Positions 2,781 through 56,608 of a stretch of 64,000 bases of DNA are shown here, piece after piece (the stretch's first letter is position 1; each line of letters opens with the position of its first letter). The notes beneath the pieces were generated by a model that saw nothing but the letters and a program-made list of their open reading frames with translations, did no database searches and was not told the origin of the DNA. The translations under genes and the position numbers were made by a program. This DNA is from Cellulophaga baltica (GTDB lineage: Bacteria; Bacteroidota; Bacteroidia; Flavobacteriales; Flavobacteriaceae), in NCBI RefSeq assembly GCF_018861125.1, contig NZ_JAHKQN010000015.1:248001-312000 (forward strand), in the 5' to 3' direction.

Positions 2781-2867
2781 AATAAAAAAGAGCTTTGTCT
2801 TGTGAACAAAGCTCTTTAAACGAGAACACTATATGAAAATGAAAAAAATTATTATTTCTTAATTACT
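2781..2867 (-). ncRNA. Small-RNA-like element, family II copy 2
   Basis: Minus-strand unit with the same plan as the copy near 2.0 kb. A TACATTTA -7-like box lies at 2878-2871. A diverged 25-nt stretch follows, then the identical 26-nt block (2845-2820), a perfect 12-bp hairpin (2817-2787) and a clear U-tract (CTCTTTTTTATTATATG). The conserved ATAGTTAT lies 28 nt upstream of the -7 box. The plus-strand side of this hairpin has only three T residues, so the minus-strand reading is the better one. No coding potential is seen. Transcript ends are predicted, not measured. Confidence 0.55.
2787..2817 (-). terminator. Terminator hairpin of family II copy 2
   Basis: AAAGAGCTTTGT (2787-2798) and ACAAAGCTCTTT (2806-2817) form a perfect 12-bp stem. 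The minus strand continues with six T residues; the plus strand does not. Confidence 0.75.
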
Positions 2868-2912
2868 TTATAAATGTAGTACTCATACACGCATTCACAT
2901 AACTATTGTTGT
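2820..2912 (-). repeat. Family II repeat, copy 2
   Basis: Second copy of the 26-bp plus 14-bp conserved blocks described for 1979-2071, here at 2820-2845 and 2899-2912, with identical spacing. Confidence 0.8.
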
Positions 2913-2987
2913 CAATTACTGAATAGTTGTGGTTAACTACTTAATACAGTATATTTAAAACAATAATTTTTGTCTTAGAGGTTTTTT

Positions 2988-3428
2988 ATGAGGTTTAATT
3001 GGTGTTGTATTAGTGTTTTATTTCTTTTTATGATTAGTTGTGGACAAAAAGAGAAGGAGCAATTAGATTTAAAAGATTGGATACCATTAGATGTTACGGT
3101 AACTGCATATAATACTTTCCCGTCACAAACTACAGCATACGATTCTGATATTGCCGCTTGGGGTGACACTTTAAAACCTGGAATGAAAGCTATTGCGATT
3201 TCCCGAGATTTACTACGTAAAGGTTTGGATTACAATACAATGGTTCGTATTGATACTATTCCGGATACATTTTATGTTAAAGATAAAATGCATTTTAAAC
3301 ACCGTAATAAAATTGATATTTTTATGGGAAAGAACAAACAAAAAGCATTAGATTGGGGACGAAGAAAACTTACTATTTTTTATTTTCCTAAAAAAGATAG
3401 TCTTACAGTAAAAGATACTGTTCACTGA
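2988..3428 (+). CDS. 3D-domain lipoprotein, probable cell-wall hydrolase
   Basis: 146-aa exported lipoprotein: hydrophobic signal with lipobox ISC, lipidated Cys18. The body matches the 3D domain (double-psi beta barrel) found at the end of MltA lytic transglycosylases and in YuiC-like proteins. It starts VTAYN (38-42), then WGDTLKPG (58-65), VKD (97-99), KIDIFMG (108-114) and WGRRKL (123-128); Asp60, Asp99 and Asp110 are the candidate three aspartates. The likely role is cleavage or binding of peptidoglycan glycan at the outer-membrane side of the periplasm (inference). It is 37 bp upstream of an amidase gene and probably co-transcribed with it and the M14 peptidase. Confidence 0.75.
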   Translation: MRFNWCCISVLFLFMISCGQKEKEQLDLKDWIPLDVTVTAYNTFPSQTTAYDSDIAAWGDTLKPGMKAIAISRDLLRKGLDYNTMVRIDTIPDTFYVKDKMHFKHRNKIDIFMGKNKQKALDWGRRKLTIFYFPKKDSLTVKDTVH

Positions 3429-8706: not shown

Positions 8707-9149
8707 TGGCGAGAGCACAAGAAACCTTTGGTAAAAAAGAACGAGAAAAAAAGCGTTTGAAAAAACGTGAAGAGAAAGCGAAGAAAAAAGAAATGCGTAA
8801 AGCAAGTGGAGAGCAAGATAGCATGTTTGTTTACGTAGATGAAAACGGTCATTTAGTTGACACTCCACCAGATCCAACAAAGAAAGTGAAAGTTGATGCT
8901 GAAAGCATAGTTCTTGGTATACCTAAAAAGGAAGAAAGTGACGAAGAAATAGATCCAGTACGTAAAGGACGCGTTGAGTTTTTTAACGAATCTAAAGGTT
9001 ATGGTTTTATTAAAGATACAGATTCTCAAGAAAAATTCTTTGTACACATTAACGGTTGCTTAGAAGAGATAAGAGAAAATAATATGGTACAATTTGAACT
9101 TGAAAAAGGTATGAAAGGTATGAATGCCGTTCGTGTTAAAAAAGTTTAG
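8706..9149 (+). CDS. Cold-shock-domain protein with basic N-terminal extension
   Basis: 147 aa. Residues 1-35 are extremely Lys/Arg/Glu-rich (KKEREKKRLKKREEKAKKKE), probably helical and nucleic-acid binding. A linker leads to a C-terminal cold-shock domain (about 83-147) with RNP1 KGYGFI and RNP2 FFVHI, giving an OB-fold that binds single-stranded RNA or DNA. Classic CspA proteins are about 70 aa, so the N-terminal half is an addition seen in Bacteroidota homologues. The leader of about 165 nt is long, as is common for cold-shock mRNAs, whose folding controls translation. Cytoplasmic, monocistronic, with a strong terminator at 9172-9203. The ATG overlaps the stop of a possible leader ORF. Confidence 0.88.
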   Translation: MARAQETFGKKEREKKRLKKREEKAKKKEMRKASGEQDSMFVYVDENGHLVDTPPDPTKKVKVDAESIVLGIPKKEESDEEIDPVRKGRVEFFNESKGYGFIKDTDSQEKFFVHINGCLEEIRENNMVQFELEKGMKGMNAVRVKKV

Positions 9150-15406: not shown

Positions 15407-15451
15407 AAAAACAAAAAAGCAGTAAAATTTAGTTTACTGCTTTTTTGTTTT
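15407..15451. terminator. Bidirectional terminator
   Basis: AAAACAAAAAAGCAGTAAA (15407-15425) pairs perfectly with TTTACTGCTTTTTTGTTTT (15433-15451). The distal end overlaps the stop codon of the minus-strand regulator gene. Confidence 0.85.
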
Positions 15452-16133
15452 AGAACAATTCTGCTTTTACTTTATCATAATAGCTATCACTAATAGGTAT
15501 TTTAGTGTCGTTTAAAACTAAATCTCTACCTGTAAGTGAATTAACCTTACTTTTATTTACAATATAAGACCTATGAACGCGAATAAATAGCTCACTTGGA
15601 ATCGTTTTCTCTAATGATTTTAGTGATTGTAAACTCATTATCTTTTTACCATCTGTATAAAATGTTACATACTCACTATCACTCTTTATGTAGTTGATGT
15701 CACTGTATTTAACCTTATGTAAATCGTAACCAGATTTTATAGTAATACTTTCATCAGTATCATTAGGTAATGCATTAGTTTCTACATTAACTTTTTGAAC
15801 TGCCGTTAAAAATCGGGTAAAAGTAATAGGCTTTAATAAGTAGTCTACAACATTTAATTCATAGCCCTCTAATGCATACTCAGAATACGCAGTTGTAAAA
15901 ATTATTTTAGTGTCTCCACCAACTATTTTAGCAAATTCAGTTCCTTTAATTTCAGGCATTTGAATATCTAAAAATAGTAAATCTATCTTTTTGGTTTTTA
16001 GTACCTGTAAAGCTTCAAGAGGATTTTCAAAATCACCTTCAAGTTCTAAAAAATCAACATCATTAATATAACTTTTGATTAATGCTCTAGCTAATTCTTC
16101 GTCATCAATTACTAAACATTTCAATTTTTTCAT
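15450..16133 (-). CDS. LytTR-type response regulator
   Basis: 227 aa. N-terminal receiver with the acidic pair DDEE (10-13), phosphoacceptor Asp56 in LLFLDIQMP, the conserved Thr in FTTAYS and Lys in LLKPI. The C-terminal LytTR DNA-binding domain (about 125-227) contains FIRVHRSYIVN. It binds direct repeats upstream of target genes when phosphorylated. Its start overlaps the stop of the kinase gene upstream by 4 bp (ATGA-type overlap), so the pair is translationally coupled. The likely target is the divergent metal-related gene set starting at 17386 (inference). Confidence 0.93.
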   Translation of the reverse strand: MKKLKCLVIDDEELARALIKSYINDVDFLELEGDFENPLEALQVLKTKKIDLLFLDIQMPEIKGTEFAKIVGGDTKIIFTTAYSEYALEGYELNVVDYLLKPITFTRFLTAVQKVNVETNALPNDTDESITIKSGYDLHKVKYSDINYIKSDSEYVTFYTDGKKIMSLQSLKSLEKTIPSELFIRVHRSYIVNKSKVNSLTGRDLVLNDTKIPISDSYYDKVKAELF

Positions 16134-17197
16134 TCTAAAATTAGTTTTAAGCTTACGCTATATAGTGTATCATTATTTTCAATAAAAAACTCATGTTTGT
16201 CAGGATACAAAATACGCAATCTTTTTTTAACATTTTCTAATCCAATACCACCAATTCCGTCTTTATTTACAACTTTTTGTGTTTTACTGTTTTTTATTTT
16301 AAAAATTACAGTATTATTTTTTTGCGTGATTTGTATGCTTAAATAAGCTTCTTTTATATGCTCTATATTACCATGCTTTAAGGCGTTTTCTAAAAAAGGA
16401 ATTAAAAGCATTGGAGCAATTGCTACATTTTCATCATCTATATCAAAATCTGTAGTGATTGGGTATTTTTTACTACTTTTTACAGTAAATAGTTTTATGT
16501 AATTTTCTATGTAATTAATTTCTTTTTTTAAAGGTACTTTTGGTTGTTCGCACTCATACAATACATATCTAAGCATAGCTGCTAAATAACTAATACTCTC
16601 TTGTGTTTTTTTAGTATTTATAGCAGATAAAGCATAAATATTATTTAGTGTATTAAATAAAAAATGTGGATTAATTTGAGATTTTAAAAGTTTTAATTCC
16701 GTAGCTAATTTTTCATTAATATTTTTAATAGTTTCTCTTTCTTTTTGTTGAGCAAAAATTAAGGTTTCTAAAAAAGTACCAATAGTAAAAGAAACGGTTA
16801 ATAGTAATGAATGTATAAAAAGTGGAGATGGTCCAGCTATAGCTTGTGGGGGAAGTCGTCTTGGTGAATGATCTGGTTGTGGCATATGATCCATACCCCC
16901 AATCATTGGATCAGGTAACATATTAGGATCAAAATTTGGTGTTGAAAAAAAATGTTTAAGTATAGAGCTTAGCATTATTATACCTATGAAAAGGCTAAAA
17001 AAAGCAACGTATTTTTTATTGAAAAGTAATTTTGGAGCTCCATAGAAAATTAACAGTGCTAAAACTGCTATTTGTACTAGGTAAGCAGTATAGTTTTTTT
17101 CAATAAACAGGTTGTTTTTTCCCTCTACAAACCATATTATAACCCAAATTACAAACCATAAAACCACTTGAAATAAGAATCTTTTTGATGCTTTCAT
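16130..17197 (-). CDS. LytS/YehU-type sensor histidine kinase with Met/His-rich loop
   Basis: 355 aa. Four predicted membrane segments in the first 150 residues, then a coiled linker and a His_kinase domain. Phosphoacceptor His178 lies in SQINPHFLFNTLNN, and the ATP-binding part contains LENALKHG and GIGLENVKKRL. Between the third and fourth membrane segments (about 84-124) an extracytoplasmic loop is rich in Met, His, Asp and Pro (PNMLPDPMIGGMDHM, then PQPDH). Such clusters often bind copper or other soft metals, so metal sensing is proposed (inference). It is co-transcribed with the response regulator and divergent from a gene set ending in an SCO copper-chaperone gene. Confidence 0.9.
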   Translation of the reverse strand: MKASKRFLFQVVLWFVIWVIIWFVEGKNNLFIEKNYTAYLVQIAVLALLIFYGAPKLLFNKKYVAFFSLFIGIIMLSSILKHFFSTPNFDPNMLPDPMIGGMDHMPQPDHSPRRLPPQAIAGPSPLFIHSLLLTVSFTIGTFLETLIFAQQKERETIKNINEKLATELKLLKSQINPHFLFNTLNNIYALSAINTKKTQESISYLAAMLRYVLYECEQPKVPLKKEINYIENYIKLFTVKSSKKYPITTDFDIDDENVAIAPMLLIPFLENALKHGNIEHIKEAYLSIQITQKNNTVIFKIKNSKTQKVVNKDGIGGIGLENVKKRLRILYPDKHEFFIENNDTLYSVSLKLILE

Positions 17198-17385
17198 ATC
17201 ACAAATTAAAGTAAAAAAAAATCAATTAAGTGTAAAAATATAGCTAGTAAATTCCTTTAAAGTTAACACTCGCTGAATCATTTTAACATTTTACTGATAA
17301 GTTTTATTAATTAGTTGATTGTTAGGTTTTAACACGATTATTTTTATCAAATTTGTATTCAATAATATTAAAAAAAATAGAACAG

Positions 17386-17655
17386 ATGATTAATAAAGGA
17401 ATTAAGTTAGGAATTTTTGCAGTTGCATTATTATCTTTTTCATTAAGTAGCGCACAAAATAGAGACCAAAAAACACCTCCTACTTTTGAAGAGTTAATAG
17501 AGAAAATGGATAAAAATGAAGATGGTAAACTTTCAGAAGATGAAGTAGAAGGACCATTAAAAGATATGTTTTCTGAAATTGATACTGATGAAGATGGTTT
17601 TATTACAGAAGAAGAATTTGAAAATGCTCCTAAGCCAAAAGGGCCAAGAAAGTAA
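17386..17655 (+). CDS. Secreted EF-hand protein
   Basis: An in-frame start at 17353 exists, but the ATG at 17386 is preferred because MINKGIKLGIFAVALLSFSL begins a clean signal peptide ending at SSAQ; the protein is then 89 aa. The mature part carries two canonical EF-hand loops, DKNEDGKLSEDE and DTDEDGFITEEE, both with acidic residues at positions 1, 3, 5 and 12, so Ca2+ binding is likely. The C-terminus is Pro/Lys-rich. It is the first gene of a plus-strand set (EF-hand, YHYH, MORN, SCO) with gaps of 34 and 13 bp and then an overlap, transcribed away from the LytS/LytTR pair. Confidence 0.8.
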   Translation: MINKGIKLGIFAVALLSFSLSSAQNRDQKTPPTFEELIEKMDKNEDGKLSEDEVEGPLKDMFSEIDTDEDGFITEEEFENAPKPKGPRK

Positions 17656-17689
17656 TTTTTTAATATTAATAAATTAAATATTTAGTAGG

Positions 17690-18493
17690 ATGAAAAAAGA
17701 ACTAATAATAAACAAATATTTACCAATTAAGTTGTTATTAGTGGCAACTTCAGTTGCAATTTTTTCATGCAGTAGTGATTCGGTTAGTAGTGATGATGAT
17801 ACGACAGAAGAATTGGCTGAAGATTCAGCAGATGAGGAGGCGGTAACCGAATTACATGCTGCTTATGCAGCTTTTAATACAGATGCTACTACAATATATT
17901 TAGATGGTTCAAATGTAGTTATTGAAACTACAGGTTTACCTGATCATGAATCTGTTTATTGGGGAGAAGGTAATGATCTTTATAGAGAAGAAACTGAGGT
18001 TGCATTAACCCCGAGTATTATGTCAAGTAATAATAATGCAGTAACAATAACTGTTGATGCTACGCCGGACTTAACAGGTGATTCTGTTGATACAAATTTT
18101 GACACTATTGGTATTGCAGTAAGTGGCGCATCAATATTTAATGATCAAGAAGGTGCAGGTACATTAGATGATGCGGCTACATCACTTGATTGGACAGGAG
18201 CACATATTGGCCCAGGTGTTTATCATTACCACCTAGAGCCAGTTGCATTTAGTGATGATGATTCAAATTTAGTTGGTATATTGTTAGATGGTGTCTTCTT
18301 ATACGGTAGAAAATGTGATTCTACAAGTGATTATCCAGATGATTTAGACGTTTCTGGTGGTCATACGTCAACAACACAATATACTGATGGTGAAGAAGAA
18401 TATCACTATCATATAATTAATGAAGAATATTCAGTACCTACATCATATGGTTACTCATATCTTGCATTTGTAGGCCCTTACCAAGGATATTAA
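17690..18493 (+). CDS. YHYH-domain lipoprotein
   Basis: 267 aa. Lipobox FSC (Cys27), an acidic Asp/Glu-rich linker (about 33-53), then a YHYH-type domain. Motif YHYHLEP begins at 178 (in GPGVYHYHLEP) and a second YHYH at 238-241. LVGILLDGVFLYGRKC in between is typical of the family. The His/Tyr clusters suggest metal binding, but no YHYH activity is firmly established. It is 34 bp after the EF-hand gene and 13 bp before the MORN gene, so it is probably part of one operon with the SCO gene. Outer-membrane or surface location is predicted. Confidence 0.85.
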   Translation: MKKELIINKYLPIKLLLVATSVAIFSCSSDSVSSDDDTTEELAEDSADEEAVTELHAAYAAFNTDATTIYLDGSNVVIETTGLPDHESVYWGEGNDLYREETEVALTPSIMSSNNNAVTITVDATPDLTGDSVDTNFDTIGIAVSGASIFNDQEGAGTLDDAATSLDWTGAHIGPGVYHYHLEPVAFSDDDSNLVGILLDGVFLYGRKCDSTSDYPDDLDVSGGHTSTTQYTDGEEEYHYHIINEEYSVPTSYGYSYLAFVGPYQGY

Positions 18494-18506
18494 AATTATA
18501 TTTTAG

Positions 18507-19130
18507 ATGAAAAAAATATACTTTTTACTATTTTTAACTATTATTTTTTATAGTTGTAAAAAAGAAAATCCAATAAAAAAAGTAGTATCTAAAACTACTA
18601 CAGAAATTATTGATGATTCTATTACAATTGCAAATATAGAAGTAGATAAAAAGAAATTATTTTTAAATCAAATTGAAGGCAAATGGTATTTAAATGATAA
18701 ACCTTTTGAAGGTTACTCTTTAAAATATCATAAAAATGGCACTGTTATAGAAAAGCTTGGATTTTACAAAGGTAAAAGACAAGGTAGTGCTAAAAGATGG
18801 TTTGAAAATGGAGTGTTGAGAGCATCATTTAATTATAACCAAAACAAATTAGTTGGCTCTTATAAAACCTGGTGGGTAAACGGAGTGCTATCAGAACATT
18901 CTACTTATGTAAACGGCATAAAGCAAGGCATCGAAAAAAGATGGTATTCAAGCGGACAATTGGCTAAAATGCGTAATCTTGTTGATGGAAAAGAACAAGG
19001 TTTGCAACAAGCTTGGTTACAAAACGGTACCTTGTATGTTAATTATGAAGCTAAAAACGGAAGAGTTTTTGGTTTAAAGCGTGCTAATCTATGTTATCAG
19101 TTAAAAGATGAAGTGGTTACCAGAAATTAA
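18507..19130 (+). CDS. MORN-variant repeat lipoprotein (YwqK-like)
   Basis: 207 aa. Lipobox YSC (Cys17) followed by several 20-24 residue repeats of the form Y.NG.....WYE.G.L, as in GFYKGKRQGSAKRWFENG and WWVNGVLSEHSTYVNGIKQG. This is the MORN_2 repeat often labelled antitoxin YwqK. There is no partner toxin nearby and the protein is lipidated, so an antitoxin role is not supported. Its last 23 bases overlap the start of the SCO gene, indicating translational coupling. Confidence 0.8.
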   Translation: MKKIYFLLFLTIIFYSCKKENPIKKVVSKTTTEIIDDSITIANIEVDKKKLFLNQIEGKWYLNDKPFEGYSLKYHKNGTVIEKLGFYKGKRQGSAKRWFENGVLRASFNYNQNKLVGSYKTWWVNGVLSEHSTYVNGIKQGIEKRWYSSGQLAKMRNLVDGKEQGLQQAWLQNGTLYVNYEAKNGRVFGLKRANLCYQLKDEVVTRN

Positions 19131-19806
19131 ATTACAGTATTACTTTTTATGTTTAGGTATTGCTTTTATTTCATCTTGTAAAAATGAAGTAAAAAAAGTA
19201 GAACTAAAAACAGAGGAGTCTAGTAGAGTAGTAAATCTACCTTTTTATTCAGATGAATCATTTACACCAAACTGGTTAACACCAAATAGTGAAGAGGCTA
19301 AATCGTTTCATAAAATCCCAAATTTTAAATTGGTGAATCAATTAGGAGATACAATTACTCAAAATACTTTTAATGATAAAATATACGTTACAGATTTCTT
19401 TTTTACAACATGCCCCGGAATTTGCCCAAAGATGATGGAAAGTATGGCTGTATTACAAGAAAAATACATTGCAGATGATGAGATAATGTTTTTATCACAT
19501 TCTGTGACACCTTCAATAGATTCTGTGTCTGTTTTAAAGGACTATGCAGATGATAGAGGAGTGGTTGCCAATAAATGGCATTTGGTTACTGGTGATAAAA
19601 ATGAGATTTATGATTTAGGGCGCAATCAATATTTTGTAGAAAATGATTTAGGTGTTCCCAAAGACCAAAATGATTTTTTACATTCTGAAAATTTTTTGTT
19701 GATAGATAAAGAAAAGCATATTCGTGGTATTTATAATAGTTTAAATAGAGCATCAATGAAACAATTAATAGTTGATATTGAGACTTTAAAAAAAGAGTAT
19801 TTATAA
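19108..19806 (+). CDS. SCO1/SenC/PrrC-family copper-binding lipoprotein
   Basis: 232 aa. N-terminal hydrophobic segment with an SSC lipobox (Cys24), then a thioredoxin-like fold with the copper-binding CPGIC (Cys102, Cys106) in FFFTTCPGICPKMM and the distant ligand His192 in FLHSENF. All three Cu ligands are present. SCO proteins deliver copper to the CuA site of cytochrome oxidase or act as thiol-disulfide factors on the periplasmic side. It overlaps the MORN gene by 23 bp and ends the metal-related operon at a strong terminator. No oxidase genes are in the window, so the client is unknown. Confidence 0.92.
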   Translation: MKWLPEIKLQYYFLCLGIAFISSCKNEVKKVELKTEESSRVVNLPFYSDESFTPNWLTPNSEEAKSFHKIPNFKLVNQLGDTITQNTFNDKIYVTDFFFTTCPGICPKMMESMAVLQEKYIADDEIMFLSHSVTPSIDSVSVLKDYADDRGVVANKWHLVTGDKNEIYDLGRNQYFVENDLGVPKDQNDFLHSENFLLIDKEKHIRGIYNSLNRASMKQLIVDIETLKKEYL

Positions 19807-45240: not shown

Positions 45241-45837
45241 ATGAAAAGTACAATCAGAAATATAGGTCTTTCAGTATTAGCAGTAGTTGCTTTTACAGTT
45301 CAAGCAAATGCACAAAGTAGATCAACAAAAAAAACGACTACTACTACAACAACTACAACAAGATCAAATGCAAAAACATCAAGAGTTGTAAAAAGATCAA
45401 ATGTGCAGTATAAAACACCTAAGAAAAAAGTAGTCACTTATAGAAAAATACCTTCAAAATCTAAAACAGTTACAGTAAGAAATAACAATAATACGTACCA
45501 ATATGATAATAATAGATTTTATAGAAGTTATAACGGTCGTTATATAGCTGTAGCACCAAAACCAGGAGTAAGGATATCAAGATTACCTGTTGGTTATAGA
45601 ACAATTAGACATGGAGGAAGAAGTTACTTTAATTTTGGAGGAATTTTTTATATCAGTATAAACAACCAATATGAAGTAGTACAGCCAGAAGTTGGTACAA
45701 TTGTATATGAATTGCCAAATGATGCTGAAAAAGTTATTATTGAAGATCAAGTTTTATATGAGTATAATGATGTGATCTATGAGCGTATTCAGTATGATGG
45801 AACAAGAGCTTATGAAGTTGTTGGATTTATTGAATAA
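45241..45837 (+). CDS. Secreted DUF6515-like protein
   Basis: 198 aa. Signal peptide ending ANAQ (about residue 24), then a Thr-run and a Lys/Arg/Ser-rich basic region (about 25-80), then a Tyr/Asn-rich domain (RFYRSYNGRYIAVAPKPGVR, then LPVGYRTIRHGGRSYFNFGGI). The order short aromatic motif, P-x-x-G, LP-x-G-Y, second aromatic motif matches the DUF6515 type. Role unknown; the basic stretch suggests binding to anionic surface polymers (inference). Monocistronic, with a strong terminator. Confidence 0.72.
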   Translation: MKSTIRNIGLSVLAVVAFTVQANAQSRSTKKTTTTTTTTTRSNAKTSRVVKRSNVQYKTPKKKVVTYRKIPSKSKTVTVRNNNNTYQYDNNRFYRSYNGRYIAVAPKPGVRISRLPVGYRTIRHGGRSYFNFGGIFYISINNQYEVVQPEVGTIVYELPNDAEKVIIEDQVLYEYNDVIYERIQYDGTRAYEVVGFIE

Positions 45838-51685: not shown

Positions 51686-52423
51686 ATGAGTATAAAGCTA
51701 ACCTGTATTGTTGTAGATGATGAGCCAATGGCGGCTAATTTGGTAGAGAGTTATGTTGAAAAAACACCATTTTTAGAACCAAAAGGTAAGTTTAATAGTG
51801 CTATTGAAGCTTTAGATTTTATAAATAAGGAAGTAGTAGATTTGCTTTTTTTAGATATTCAAATGCCAGATTTAACAGGTTTAGAGTTTTCTAAAATGTT
51901 ACCTAAAAATACGCGTATTATTTTCACTACGGCTTTTGATCAGTATGCTTTAGAAGGTTTTAAAGTAGAGGCGCTTGATTATTTGTTAAAGCCTTTTGAT
52001 TATGCGGAATTTTTAACGGCTGCTAACAAAGCAAAAGTTTGGTTTGATCTTTTAAATGATAATAAAAATTCTCATAGTAGTACAGTAGAGGAGAAGGAGT
52101 TTCTTTTTGTAAAATCAGAATACAAACAATTACGCATTAAACTTGCAGATGTCTTATATTTTGAAGGCTTAAAAGATTATATAAAAATCTGGATTAAAGA
52201 CAATCCTAAGCCTATATTAACACTTATGAGTTTAAAATCTTTACAAGAAAAACTTCCTGAATACCAATTTATGCGCGTACATAGATCGTTTATTGTTTCT
52301 TTAAAAAATATTGAGGAGATAGAACGAAGCCAAATTATCATTAACAAACAACGTATTACAGTATCTGAGCAATACAAAACTAAATTTTTAGCTTTTATCA
52401 ATAACAATTCTTTAAACTTATAA
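51686..52423 (+). CDS. LytTR-type response regulator of the efflux operon
   Basis: 245 aa. Receiver with DDEP (11-14), phosphoacceptor Asp57 in LLFLDIQMP, FTTAFD, LLKPFD; LytTR domain from about 140 with FMRVHRSFIVSLKNIEEI. Expected to regulate the operon that encodes it. An A/T-only inverted repeat (52432-52454) follows and may end the transcript, but it lacks GC pairs. Confidence 0.93.
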   Translation: MSIKLTCIVVDDEPMAANLVESYVEKTPFLEPKGKFNSAIEALDFINKEVVDLLFLDIQMPDLTGLEFSKMLPKNTRIIFTTAFDQYALEGFKVEALDYLLKPFDYAEFLTAANKAKVWFDLLNDNKNSHSSTVEEKEFLFVKSEYKQLRIKLADVLYFEGLKDYIKIWIKDNPKPILTLMSLKSLQEKLPEYQFMRVHRSFIVSLKNIEEIERSQIIINKQRITVSEQYKTKFLAFINNNSLNL

Positions 52424-54181: not shown

Positions 54182-54346
54182 GGCGGCGAAGATACTTTTT
54201 TGAATTCTATTACAAAAACCTAATTCATAAACTTAAAATTAAAACAATTTTAACAGATTAACATTAATTTATATCGGTTTACTGATAACTAGTATTCATT
54301 GGTAGAAAGTGGTAAAGAGTAACTTAGATATGTTGCATCTTTGAAT

Positions 54347-54436
54347 TAAGAAATTATCTAATATAATTTTTTGGTTGAGTTAATATTGAGTTTGAGTTAG
54401 TTGTAAAAGCCCTGTATGGAGATGCAGGGCTTTTGT
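54347..54436 (+). ncRNA. Family I small RNA, unit 1 (stem type A)
   Basis: -7-like box CATCTTTG at 54336-54343; core GGTTGAGTTAATATTGAG at 54373-54390; hairpin from AAAAGCCCTGTAT at 54405 to TTTT at 54434 (9-bp GC-rich core with one G-U plus four A-T pairs). Predicted length about 90 nt. Start inferred from box spacing. Confidence 0.7.
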
Positions 54437-54569
54437 TTTGTATAGTTTATAAGCTTAGAGTTTTAGTTTATTTAAACAGCTTAACTTTATTTTATACTAA
54501 GTTACTGAATCTTATCTACTGTTCACAGATAGTTATAATTTACAATTTAATAATAATGCATCTTTGACG

Positions 54570-54650
54570 TAACAATATTTGAGATATAATTTTTGTTAAT
54601 ATTAAATTAGTTATAAAAGACCTGTGCTAAAACACAGGTCTTTTAATTTT
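54570..54650 (+). ncRNA. Family I small RNA, unit 2 (stem type C)
   Basis: CATCTTTG at 54559-54566; the core is shortened and diverged (TTTTGTTAATATTAAATTAG). Hairpin AAAAGACCTGTG (54615-54626) / CACAGGTCTTTT (54633-54644) is perfect over 12 bp with a different stem sequence from the other units. Upstream block CTGTTCACAGATAGTTATAA ends 20 bp before the box. Confidence 0.62.
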
Positions 54651-54736
54651 TTATGCCTTTATGAGAATGATAAAACAAAACTTATGGCTTTTGTTTATTT
54701 ATATTAAAACGTTAACTTTTATATACTTGTTCTAAT

Positions 54737-55099
54737 TTATTTTTTAGGAGACCAATTCATAATTTCATGATGAATTTCAGTTGGTGTACGTTTTGTTTTG
54801 TGAGCGATACTATCAATTACTAAATTAAAATTTCCTTTGTCATAGCTGGTGGTATTAGTATCAGCGACATTTGGGTAATGTGCAAGGTATTCATCGCGCA
54901 CCGCAAGCCATTGCTTCTCTAAATTTATATCTTCTATAGATGTATCAACACCACCATTGTTTACAGGGTTTCCAATATTATCTGTAGTAGTGTCTTCATC
55001 TAGGTAGGGTTCTTGTTCTAAACTACGGTTTTGTTGTACATTATTATCTAAACCTTTATAGGTTCTGTCTTTATCGAGATTTTTATTTTCTGTGATCAT
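54737..55099 (-). CDS. Hypothetical small acidic protein, 120 aa, inside the small-RNA array
   Basis: No signal or membrane segment. The N-terminal half is low-complexity, rich in Asp, Asn, Thr and Glu, and probably disordered. The C-terminal half (about 61-120) reads as a small helical domain: KQWLAVRDEYLAHYPN, FNLVIDSIAHKT, RTPTEIHHEIMNW. This W...Y...YP...EI...I..W rhythm resembles small stress-type proteins of Bacteroidota, but no named family is assigned. It is the only gene within the array, on the opposite strand, with a symmetric promoter palindrome at 55107-55134 and a TAATTTTG -7 box. Cytoplasmic. Confidence 0.72.
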   Translation of the reverse strand: MITENKNLDKDRTYKGLDNNVQQNRSLEQEPYLDEDTTTDNIGNPVNNGGVDTSIEDINLEKQWLAVRDEYLAHYPNVADTNTTSYDKGNFNLVIDSIAHKTKRTPTEIHHEIMNWSPKK

Positions 55100-55106
55100 C
55101 GTATTT

Positions 55107-55134
55107 TAATTTTGTATTTACCAATACAAAATTA
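55107..55134. promoter_or_regulatory. Perfect 12-bp inverted repeat carrying two opposed -7 boxes
   Basis: TAATTTTGTATT (55107-55118), spacer TACC, AATACAAAATTA (55123-55134). Each arm begins with TAATTTTG, a full TAnnTTTG match, one on each strand. The minus-strand box would serve the 120-codon gene with a short leader; the plus-strand box would fire towards small-RNA unit 3. It may also be an operator. Confidence 0.6.
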
Positions 55135-55332
55135 CAGAATGACCTACTTGAAGCTTGCTCATTCAATATTATTACTAACCTGAAAACAAATTCATTTAAA
55201 GACTGAATTTATCAGGTAGGAAGTTTCCTAAATTACAAACACATTAACATAATTTTATTAAAGTTCACTTAAGTATTTATCCTGTTCACAGATAGTTGTA
55301 AAAAGCAATTTAAATTAGCTTCATCTTTGAAA

Positions 55333-55420
55333 TAATAAAACAATATATGACTTTGGTTGAGTTAATATTGGCTTTGAATTGGTTAGAAAGCTCTGTGCAC
55401 TTGCACGGAGCTTTTGTTTT
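55333..55420 (+). ncRNA. Family I small RNA, unit 3 (stem type B)
   Basis: CATCTTTG at 55322-55329; core TTTGGTTGAGTTAATATTGG at 55352-55371; hairpin AAAGCTCTGTGC (55387-55398) with GCACGGAGCTTT (55403-55414), one G-U, then T-tract. Upstream block CTGTTCACAGATAGTTGTAA is nearly the same as in unit 2. Confidence 0.68.
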
Positions 55421-55561
55421 TATAAAGCTTATAAAACGTGTTTTTTTTCTCATTTTTCAATAAAATAGTATATTAACATTTCTTTATACCTGTTTGCTGA
55501 TTACGAGTATTCGTTGGTAGATTGTTTGAAAAAGTAATTCAAATATGTTGCATCTTTGAAG

Positions 55562-55657
55562 CAAGGAATTATTAAATATAGTTTCTTGATTGAGTTAATA
55601 TTGAGTTTGAGTTAGTTGTAAAAGCCCTGTATGGAGATACAGGGCTTTTATTTGTTT
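55562..55657 (+). ncRNA. Family I small RNA, unit 4 (stem type A)
   Basis: CATCTTTG at 55551-55558; core TTGATTGAGTTAATATTGAG at 55586-55605; hairpin 55620-55649 (13-bp perfect stem, GGAG loop). Upstream part GCTGATTACGAGTATTCGTT matches units 1 and 6. Confidence 0.7.
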
Positions 55658-55740
55658 ATAAACCAAATCGAATCTGTTCTAAAGAGTAAAAAGCATCGCT
55701 CACCCTTCTCATTTTTTTATGGACTATTAATAAGTTGCTA

Positions 55741-55840
55741 GTTTATTTTGTAAATGAAATTAACTTCACACTTAAAGTATTACATGATTTTGGTTGATTA
55801 AATATAGACCTTAATTAGATAGAAGCTTTATGAATTCACA
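55741..55840 (+). pseudogene. Family I small RNA, unit 5, decayed
   Basis: TTTGGTTGATTAAATATAGA (55789-55808) and TAATTAGATAGAAGCTTTAT (55812-55831) align with the core of units 3 and 7, but the box reads CACACTTA instead of CATCTTTG and the downstream stem partner is gone. It is a relic of a type-B-like unit. Confidence 0.5.
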
Positions 55841-55987
55841 CAAACATTCAAGTATATAATCTTGTTTATTTTTTCTAATTTTTCCCTAAAATAGCGCATT
55901 AACATTTTTTTATACCAACTTACTGATTACTAGTATTCTTTGGTAGATTGCCTAAAAAAGTAACTTAAAAATGTTGCATCTTTGAAG

Positions 55988-56080
55988 TAAGAAATTATTA
56001 AAAATAATTTTTTGATTGAGTTAATATTGAGTTTGAGTTAGTTGTAAAAGCCCTGTATGGAGATACAGGGCTTTTATTCG
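55988..56080 (+). ncRNA. Family I small RNA, unit 6 (stem type A)
   Basis: CATCTTTG at 55977-55984; core TTGATTGAGTTAATATTGAG at 56012-56031; hairpin 56046-56075 (perfect 13-bp stem, GGAG loop). Upstream block ACTGATTACTAGTATTC at 55922-55938. Confidence 0.7.
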
Positions 56081-56212
56081 TTTATAGCCCAAATTAAACA
56101 TTTTCTACGGGTTAAATTATTCATTTATAGACCATAAAGCAGTTTTACTGATTAATACTGCTAATTCACTGAAAGTTGAAAAAAGCAATCTAAATAAATC
56201 CCATCTTTGAAG

Positions 56213-56297
56213 TATACAATATAGCTTTGGTTGAGTTAATATTGAGTATGAATTGGTTATAAAGCTCCGTGTTCTTTCACGGAGCTTTGTGTTTTTT
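56213..56297 (+). ncRNA. Family I small RNA, unit 7 (stem type B)
   Basis: CATCTTTG at 56202-56209; core TTTGGTTGAGTTAATATTGA at 56226-56245; hairpin AAAGCTCCGTG (56261-56271) / CACGGAGCTTT (56278-56288), perfect 11 bp, then GTGTTTTTT. Confidence 0.68.
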
Positions 56298-56454
56298 ACA
56301 TCACTTTGTAGCTAAAATCTCCTTAGCTATTTTTGAACCCCATAAATTATAGTAATATTAACAAGTTAACACCATTTTTAATGTGTTTGCTGATATTATT
56401 GATTCATTCGTTGATAGTTGTAAAAAGTAACTTAGATATGTTGCATCTTTGAAG

Positions 56455-56549
56455 TAAGAAATTATTAATATAATTTTTTGGTTGAGTTAAAATTGAGTTT
56501 GAGTTAGTTGTGAAAGCCCTGTATGGAGATACAGGGCTTTTATTTTTTT
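56455..56549 (+). ncRNA. Family I small RNA, unit 8 (stem type A)
   Basis: CATCTTTG at 56444-56451; core TTGGTTGAGTTAAAATTGAG at 56478-56497; hairpin AAAGCCCTGTAT (56513-56524) / ATACAGGGCTTT (56529-56540), then TATTTTTTT. Upstream TTGATAGTTGTAAAAAGTAA at 56411-56430. Last unit of the array, 60 bp from the stop of the convergent heme-binding protein gene. Confidence 0.7.
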
Positions 56550-56608
56550 ATAAAAAAATAGTCAAGCAATTAAACCTGACTATTTTAATATTTAAATTCT
56601 GAATTAAA

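Follow-up and report, generated by a model that had tools for sequence, protein, structure and literature searches.

A tandem array of putative small-RNA genes

The stretch of DNA analysed here, referred to below as the window, comprises 64,000 nucleotides from Cellulophaga baltica (contig NZ_JAHKQN010000015.1, positions 248,001 to 312,000), whose genome (G000) measures 3.92 Mb. Between window positions 54250 and 56555 lies an array of seven direct-repeat units, which an inspection of the letters alone (the original prediction) had taken for a family of ~90-nt small RNA (sRNA) genes. All seven were found where they had been placed, on the plus strand, each with an CATCTTTG box, a core, and an intrinsic terminator; the box, described as invariant, is indeed present in seven of seven. 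The units fall into three types by their cores, and we scored them with a covariance model (CM), R1, built from 14 units: these seven, six from a second genome of the genus (G004), and one from a third (G014). Type A comprises u1 (54336..54440; box, 54336-54343; predicted RNA, ~54347-54440; terminator hairpin, ~54404-54435; CM score, 113.6 bits), u4 (55551..55655; box, 55551-55558; predicted RNA, ~55562-55655; 114.9 bits), u5 (55977..56081; box, 55977-55984; predicted RNA, ~55988-56081; 116.7 bits), and u7 (56444..56549; box, 56444-56451; predicted RNA, ~56455-56549; 116.9 bits). Type B comprises u3 (55322..55420; box, 55322-55329; predicted RNA, ~55333-55420; 102.5 bits) and u6 (56202..56296; box, 56202-56209; predicted RNA, ~56213-56296; 92.7 bits), and the only type C unit, u2, has a short core that lacks GAGTT (54559..54652; box, 54559-54566; predicted RNA, ~54570-54652; 77.3 bits).

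With the start taken 4-5 nt past the TTTG of the box, the predicted RNAs are ~80-95 nt long, a range rather than the single figure first given. The threefold GAGTT that had been ascribed to the core is a feature of type A alone; u3 and u6 contain a single copy and u2 lacks it (3, 0, 1, 3, 3, 1, and 3 copies from u1 to u7). All seven predicted RNAs fold more stably than their dinucleotide shuffles (200 each; z -4.3 to -7.6), with most of the stability residing in the terminator hairpin ahead of the T-run. An eighth, decayed core of type B, overlooked in the original prediction, lies at 55773..55827 on the plus strand, where its local alignment score was matched by none of 1000 surrogates. This alignment is better evidence for the relic than its CM score of 24.2 bits, because terminator-hairpin matches on the minus strand score equally high (18-36 bits). 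The order of elements along the array (A, C, a 120-aa open reading frame, B, A, the B relic, A, B, A) suggests that it grew by duplication of B-A pairs. The 120-aa open reading frame (ORF; 54737-55099, minus strand) has no Pfam or NCBIfam match; orthologues (56-64%) are found in six other genomes of the genus, and units adjoin it only in G004.

A frame comparison, in which the alignment contains insertions, found no ORF conserved among the units. A very short peptide encoded in every unit is barely credible: the A units can be read as TTG...LVELILSLS-stop, and yet the longest closed frame has 11 codons, u2 has none, u3 has no stop, and insertions in the G004 units G4a and G4d shift the frame (by eye). 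With a putative promoter, no ORF, and an intrinsic terminator, the units have the general anatomy of sRNA genes. Conserved cores and terminator pairing without a conserved ORF make a multicopy sRNA locus the best reading of the array, as had been proposed, and we regard the units as very probably sRNA genes, whose expression we infer.

Whole units are rare outside this locus. With u7 as the query, the other six units were recovered at E values of 2e-52 to 3e-6, and neither u7 nor CM R1 found a further whole unit in the genome; one extra u7 match, at locus L008, covers the promoter-like part only. Among 18 genomes of the genus, our own included, CM R1 placed seven units in G000, six in G004, and one in G014, and gave a single weak match in G013 (8.4e-4). 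Across 299 genomes of the family, again including our own, 12 had a match, 11 of them weak (E 3e-5 to 9e-4 per genome). We rejected these weak matches, from 11 of the 298 other genomes, as homologues of the array; six of the loci carry a GAGTTAGTT-terminator motif, discussed below. A pattern scan of the named GTDB genomes matched one record, from an uncultured Cellulophaga (CANMEI010000004.1). A mobile origin finds no support, because there was no match to 54200-56600 in phage and plasmid collections or to a 25-nt pattern in viral contigs. A relation to the flavo-1 motif, which the original prediction could not judge by eye, finds no support either: the window has no Rfam match at gathering score, and its 16 permissive matches all lie below that score, with flavo-1 not among them.

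In G004, four units (locus L025) are flanked by an EamA gene on one side and the orthologue of the 120-aa ORF on the other, and two (locus L024) lie beside a cytochrome-c-domain gene. Because these parts, 44 kb apart, sit at two flanks that are syntenic with our array, the G004 array was probably split by a rearrangement. In a tree of the units, u2 groups with G4c (100/99), u6 with G4e (96/91), and the four B units together (96/93), with the A units unresolved. This grouping suggests that the A, B, and C types are older than the divergence of the two species.

To compare conservation by segment, we used five pairs called orthologous by type and position. Identity is 86-97% in the core, 70-100% in the terminator, 55-91% in the 5' part, 63-82% in the promoter, and 48-78% in the upstream block, and it falls to 32-78% further upstream (where the u1 stretch takes in the first part of the EamA gene) and to 33-55% downstream. 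Two-sided changes preserve pairing at 6 of 12 terminator pairs (14 units, three genomes), and the predicted 5' stem of the A units is paired in every cell of 7 rows (G4f, whose stem differs, left out). The original prediction had allowed that homologues might keep only the hairpins, as ordinary terminators. The core is kept as well, and because it is 86-97% identical while the outer stretches diverge, the units are not mere ordinary terminators. The units might still be repeated promoter-terminator cassettes of an expanding repeat element with no regulatory role, a reading that would suit their patchy occurrence (3 of 18 genus genomes), variable copy number, relic copy, and dispersal in G004. 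Against it, the core ranks with the best-preserved blocks of the putative orthologues, whose spacers diverge, and the type-specific cores persist in two genomes; we consider it very unlikely.

Promoter repeats and candidate LytTR regulators

The promoter box of flavobacteria is TAnnTTTG (PMC9723704), and CATCTTTG departs from it only in its first base, which is C instead of T. Among the 14 units from three genomes, 13 have C here and one has G; A2 and TTTG are fixed and the third and fourth positions are variable, as they should be in a promoter box. A TTG near -33 has no fixed position among the units. The conserved upstream block noted in the original prediction is present and also holds a 21-nt direct repeat of LytTR type. 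Its second octamer, M3 (mostly TTcAYWGA, with TTGGTAGA and CTCCTAGA also occurring), lies exactly at -37 from the box in all 14 units. The first, M2 (TTtACTGA-like), is found by pattern at -58 in 12 of 14, the exceptions being G4e, which has TCTACTGA at -58, and G4d, where the repeat is at -54. In the window, the M2/M3 repeats occupy 54278..54306 (u1; M2 at -58 and M3 at -37), 54501..54529 (u2), 55264..55292 (u3), 55493..55521 (u4), 55919..55947 (u5), 56144..56172 (u6), and 56386..56414 (u7), all on the plus strand. Described LytTR sites consist of 9-bp repeats with a 12-bp spacer and a 21-bp period (PMC2766830; PMC4847170), and they are stated to have no consensus in common (PMC4847170). If such a site is defined as a pair of 9-11-nt repeats that lie 11-13 nt apart in front of a promoter, the array units have one, as octamers with a 21-nt period.

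Domain searches identified two candidate activators in the window. The nearer two-component system comprises a sensor kinase (His_kinase, PF06580; 50618..51682) and the LytTR response regulator RR1 (Response_reg and LytTR domains; 51686..52423), both on the plus strand, and in G000 and G004, the two genomes with several units, a distance of ~1.8 kb separates RR1 from the array. The second system, on the minus strand, comprises the LytTR response regulator RR2 (15450..16133) and its sensor kinase (16130..17197).

A search pattern drawn from the units themselves (repeat, 13 nt, repeat, 29 nt, box) matched the window eight times, at the seven units and at position 17290, versus a mean of 0.017 in 60 first-order surrogates; 503,812 bases of relatives gave two matches, at a G004 promoter and in G016. 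We also made a weight matrix from the array promoters and ran it over 463,700 bases (the window and 20 stretches). It gave 37 matches, seven of them in the array, and a box stands at the right distance in 11: the array, 17289, L339 (G004), L357 (G016), and L356 (G012). The ten best matches outside the array fall in three kinds of place only. The first is the region of RR2 and an EF-hand gene, in G005, G000 (two matches), and G004. The second is a promoter in G016 and G012 before genes for a secreted protein, a TolC-like protein, and, in G012, a MacA-like protein (names by eye), genes whose counterparts belong to the RR1 gene block in the window. The third is the promoter of a YHYH gene in G014, G017, G005, and G010, with the box TAGATTTA. 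The remaining matches lack a box; one of them, at window position 45825 at the end of an ORF, was dropped.

The eighth repeat/box promoter of the window (17290..17355, plus strand), found by both pattern and matrix, precedes an EF-hand protein gene in the divergent region between that gene and the LytS/LytTR system of RR2. The corresponding position in G004 has the pattern too, and there a third repeat lies 21 nt further upstream; G005 has a similar layout by eye. Taken together, the repeat anatomy and its recurrence beside LytTR systems make it probable that a regulator of this family, with RR1 and RR2 as candidates, controls the array.

Other candidates were set aside. Neither the 120-aa protein nor RR1 was retained as a linked partner of the units, as orthologues of both occur in genomes without units. 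The response regulator beside the single unit of G014 was rejected as a shared regulator, its next best relative in 17 other genomes being 38% identical. In the 16 stretches searched in this connection, the best CM match was L118 (E 3e-5), with five others weak (E 0.01-0.86). L118, in G013, has at 8716-8814 a GAGTTAGTTAGTTGAGTTAGTT stretch and a terminator directly 3' of a DUF6090-type gene, a relative of which neighbours the array in G000 and G004. In the window, the region 15450-19806 combines the second LytTR system with EF-hand, YHYH, and SCO1-like (by eye) genes that run divergently from it, and its promoter has three repeats at 21-nt spacing. At locus L009 (~2860-3000, minus strand), a short ORF stands behind an array-like promoter (TATCTTTG), flanked by duplicated terminator-like repeats with a masked stretch.

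A shared word at terminators and start codons

The weak family CM matches drew attention to TTTGAGTTAGTT, which recurs before the terminators of unrelated genes. The pattern TTTGAGTTAGTT-n0-5-AAAA occurs in 73 of 299 family genomes and the reversed word in 36 of 299 (hand count); at 30 such loci, a terminator follows the word directly in 15 by a strict rule and in 8 more by eye. Within the genus, we collected 138 sites of AACTAACTCAA, the complement of GAGTTAGTT, from 16 genomes, with the array units left out (14 genomes complete, 11 of 12 sites for G017, 6 of 12 for G011, and G001 and G013 outside the count). The GAGTTAGTT strand precedes a terminator at 41 of the 138 sites, versus 69 of 5245 for composition-matched words. 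Conversely, AACTAACTCAA lies 0-40 nt before the start codon of an ORF (100 codons or longer) at 21 sites and never in the opposite orientation (0/138), compared with 95/7316 for shifted positions and 175/5160 for composition-matched words. When related sites were collapsed to 71 clusters, the control words remaining uncollapsed, 9 clusters stood before start codons against 3.4% expected (binomial p 7e-4) and 11 before terminators (p 3e-9). Six loci (L200, L222, L239, L270, L276, and L318) have GAGTTAGTT directly before terminators at the 3' ends of susD-like genes (C-terminus, by eye).

The genes with start-codon sites encode SusC-type receptors (six genomes), an accD-like product (four), a signal-peptide protein (four), an NhaC-like transporter (two), and, as single cases, AmtB, a Vps10/BNR protein, and three others; Pfam supplied the names of the three genes of our own genome and the rest were named by eye. 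These three, a SusC-type TonB receptor gene, amtB, and the gene for a secreted Vps10/BNR-repeat protein, account for 3 of the 15 non-array sites in G000, and 1 of 9 non-array sites in G014 is at a start codon. Predicted duplexes of the A-type RNA score -25.1 with the amtB leader, -24.7 with that of susC, and -26.0 with that of Vps10/BNR, with 4, 8, and 0 of 200 shuffles, respectively, equally good. The original prediction had considered an anti-AACTC pairing region plausible, and the site statistics lend that idea independent support for the A units, with B and C units not fitting it. The chance that A units pair with start regions seems to us about even.

The recurrence of GAGTTAGTT right before the terminators of unrelated genes would also be compatible with a decoy role, in which the array RNAs bind a protein that recognises GAGUU/GAGUUAGUU beside 3' hairpins, much as RsmY and RsmZ titrate a protein. 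We think this quite unlikely, as it leaves unexplained the complementary word at start codons and in a further conserved RNA, X.

Two putative RNAs account for many of the sites. The largest terminator cluster, present in 15 of 16 genus genomes, is a putative sRNA that we call Y, with GAGTTAGTTAGT and the terminator ACCGGTGGGAGCACCGGT. In G000 it lies at L059 (contig C18, ~75095), downstream of a DUF4197 gene and with a TACTTTTG box; other Y loci include L228, L238, and L255, and the same terminator with the word is found in five other genera (G115, G120, G142, G216, and G251). A susC-type gene with a complementary leader is situated ~1.8 kb from Y in G000, G005, and G010, with an HTH_18 gene between the two in G000. 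The predicted duplex of Y with the amtB leader reaches -36.4 kcal/mol, and none of 200 shuffles equals it.

The second putative RNA, X, has ACTAACTCAAACTA (common to the 13 shown) shortly before a terminator, 3' of a deoxynucleoside kinase-like gene (by eye). X with the exact word is present in 17 of 18 genomes, and it forms one cluster with 15 members, from 15 of the 16 genomes clustered; in G000 it lies at L063 (contig C26, ~272835), and others include L224, L208, L209, and L212. G007 is the only one of 16 genomes without both X and Y by the exact 11-nt word, reflecting either joint loss or joint change. X is a possible sponge, an action suggested by its complementary word. The roles could also be reversed, with the A-type RNAs mainly sponges for X (ACUAACUCAAACUA before its terminator) and X the main regulator of GAGUUAGUU-bearing transcripts. 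This would fit the wide occurrence of X, the runs of ~15 pairs in A-X and Y-X duplexes, and the many transcripts with GAGTTAGTT at their 3' ends that X could bind. It appears unlikely, since the start-codon sites carry an X-like word and not its complement, which makes them targets of A- or Y-type RNAs rather than of X; moreover, the A-X duplex (-25.0) is equalled by 10 of 200 shuffles.

Proposed mechanism and relation to known systems

In the reading that we favour, with a probability of roughly 0.5, the array is a family of paralogous sRNAs that are induced by LytTR and act in trans, those of type A by pairing with translation starts. Seven tandem genes would yield trans-acting RNAs of ~80-95 nt. 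Judging from the anatomy of the motif, a LytTR-family response regulator would bind the 21-nt direct repeats and activate the weak CAnnTTTG promoter before each unit. Each RNA would end at its intrinsic terminator. In the A units, for which a 5' stem-loop is predicted as well, the GAGUU-rich stretch would be left free between this stem-loop and the terminator and would pair with AACUAACUCAA-type sites at or just 5' of start codons. The targets in this genome would be the SusC-type TonB receptor, amtB, and the secreted Vps10/BNR-repeat protein, with pairing most likely blocking translation. The array would then provide an inducible, high-dosage source of a seed already used by the single-copy Y, and the conserved X, with its complementary word, would oppose both.

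Several observations weigh against this scheme. Covariation in the 5' stem of the A units is scant (1 pair; 150 of 500 shuffles do as well). RR1 orthologues (at least 80%) occur in 12 of 18 genomes and units in 3, and no array-type promoter was found upstream of the RR1 gene block of our own genome; the regulator is therefore not fixed. At the target end, genomes that lack units altogether account for 17 of the 21 start-codon sites, so the start-codon regulon would belong first to Y-type RNAs. In G004, an array genome, none of 12 non-array exact sites is at a start codon; its susC leader carries a site with one mismatch. Duplexes of the B and C RNAs with the three leaders and X are no better than shuffles (22-176 and 19-121 of 200, respectively), which confines the seed story to the A units, and the duplex scores in general are partly circular because the sites were chosen by the 11-mer.

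More tentatively, Cellulophaga, and perhaps much of the Flavobacteriaceae, might possess an RNA network founded on a single word and the word complementary to it. RNAs that contain GAGUUAGUU (Y, the array, and the 3' ends of several genes, susD-like ones among them) would silence AACUAACUCAA leaders (susC, amtB, accD-like, and others), X would soak them up, and the array would be a LytTR-induced dosage amplifier added in a few species.

Limited literature searches found nothing on small RNAs or sRNAs of Cellulophaga and, for GAGUUAGUU, only papers unrelated by title. At the level of sequence, the new elements here are the LytTR-type 21-nt promoter repeats recurring beside LytTR systems, GAGTTAGTT before terminators in Flavobacteriaceae, and AACTAACTCAA, which is overrepresented ahead of start codons, those of susC-type genes and amtB included, and also occurs in X. 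In the limited literature consulted, post-transcriptional control of glycan uptake in this phylum has been worked out in Bacteroides. If the proposed scheme is true, flavobacteria would possess their own version of such control, a tandem sRNA array under a two-component system with a candidate seed beside the terminator and a genus-wide network of word and anti-word that includes a candidate sponge. The array offers concrete targets and a regulator class, so that control of nutrient uptake by RNA can be tested directly in these bacteria.

The original prediction knew of no named system with this layout; two named systems resemble it in logic, FopS of Bacteroides and the csRNAs of Streptococcus. 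In Bacteroides thetaiotaomicron, FopS comprises 14 paralogous sRNAs (nine intergenic, four antisense, and one derived from a 3' UTR) of ~65-70 nt, with a GibS-derived seed (R1) at the 5' end and RbpB as an antagonist (PMC11697453). Like the putative array RNAs, they are multicopy paralogous sRNAs of the same phylum with housekeeping-type promoters, and they pair at translation start regions, prominently those of susC-like leaders, a feature that in the array is a prediction (PMC11697453). Compared by description, the array differs in its 80-95-nt length, tandem layout, LytTR-type repeats, and candidate seed beside the terminator (PMC11697453). By analogy, and as far as the published description extends, FopS is the nearest working analogue.

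CiaR, which regulates the csRNAs, is not known as a LytTR regulator. The csRNAs themselves resemble the array as two to six sibling sRNAs, partly in tandem, under one response regulator, and differ in phylum, sequence, and targets (PMC4211561). Similarly, the Qrr sRNAs of Vibrio are several siblings activated by a two-component response regulator, differing in their distal sites, LuxO control, and quorum-sensing targets (PMC4211561). Closer in taxonomy, Rfp18 and other sRNAs of Flavobacterium psychrophilum are Flavobacteriaceae sRNAs with a measured effect on secreted-protein genes; the predicted pairing of Rfp18 lies in a stem-loop, and the account drawn on describes no array (PMC9723704). 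Flavo-1 (RF01705) is likewise a non-coding RNA candidate of the Bacteroidetes (PMC2864571).

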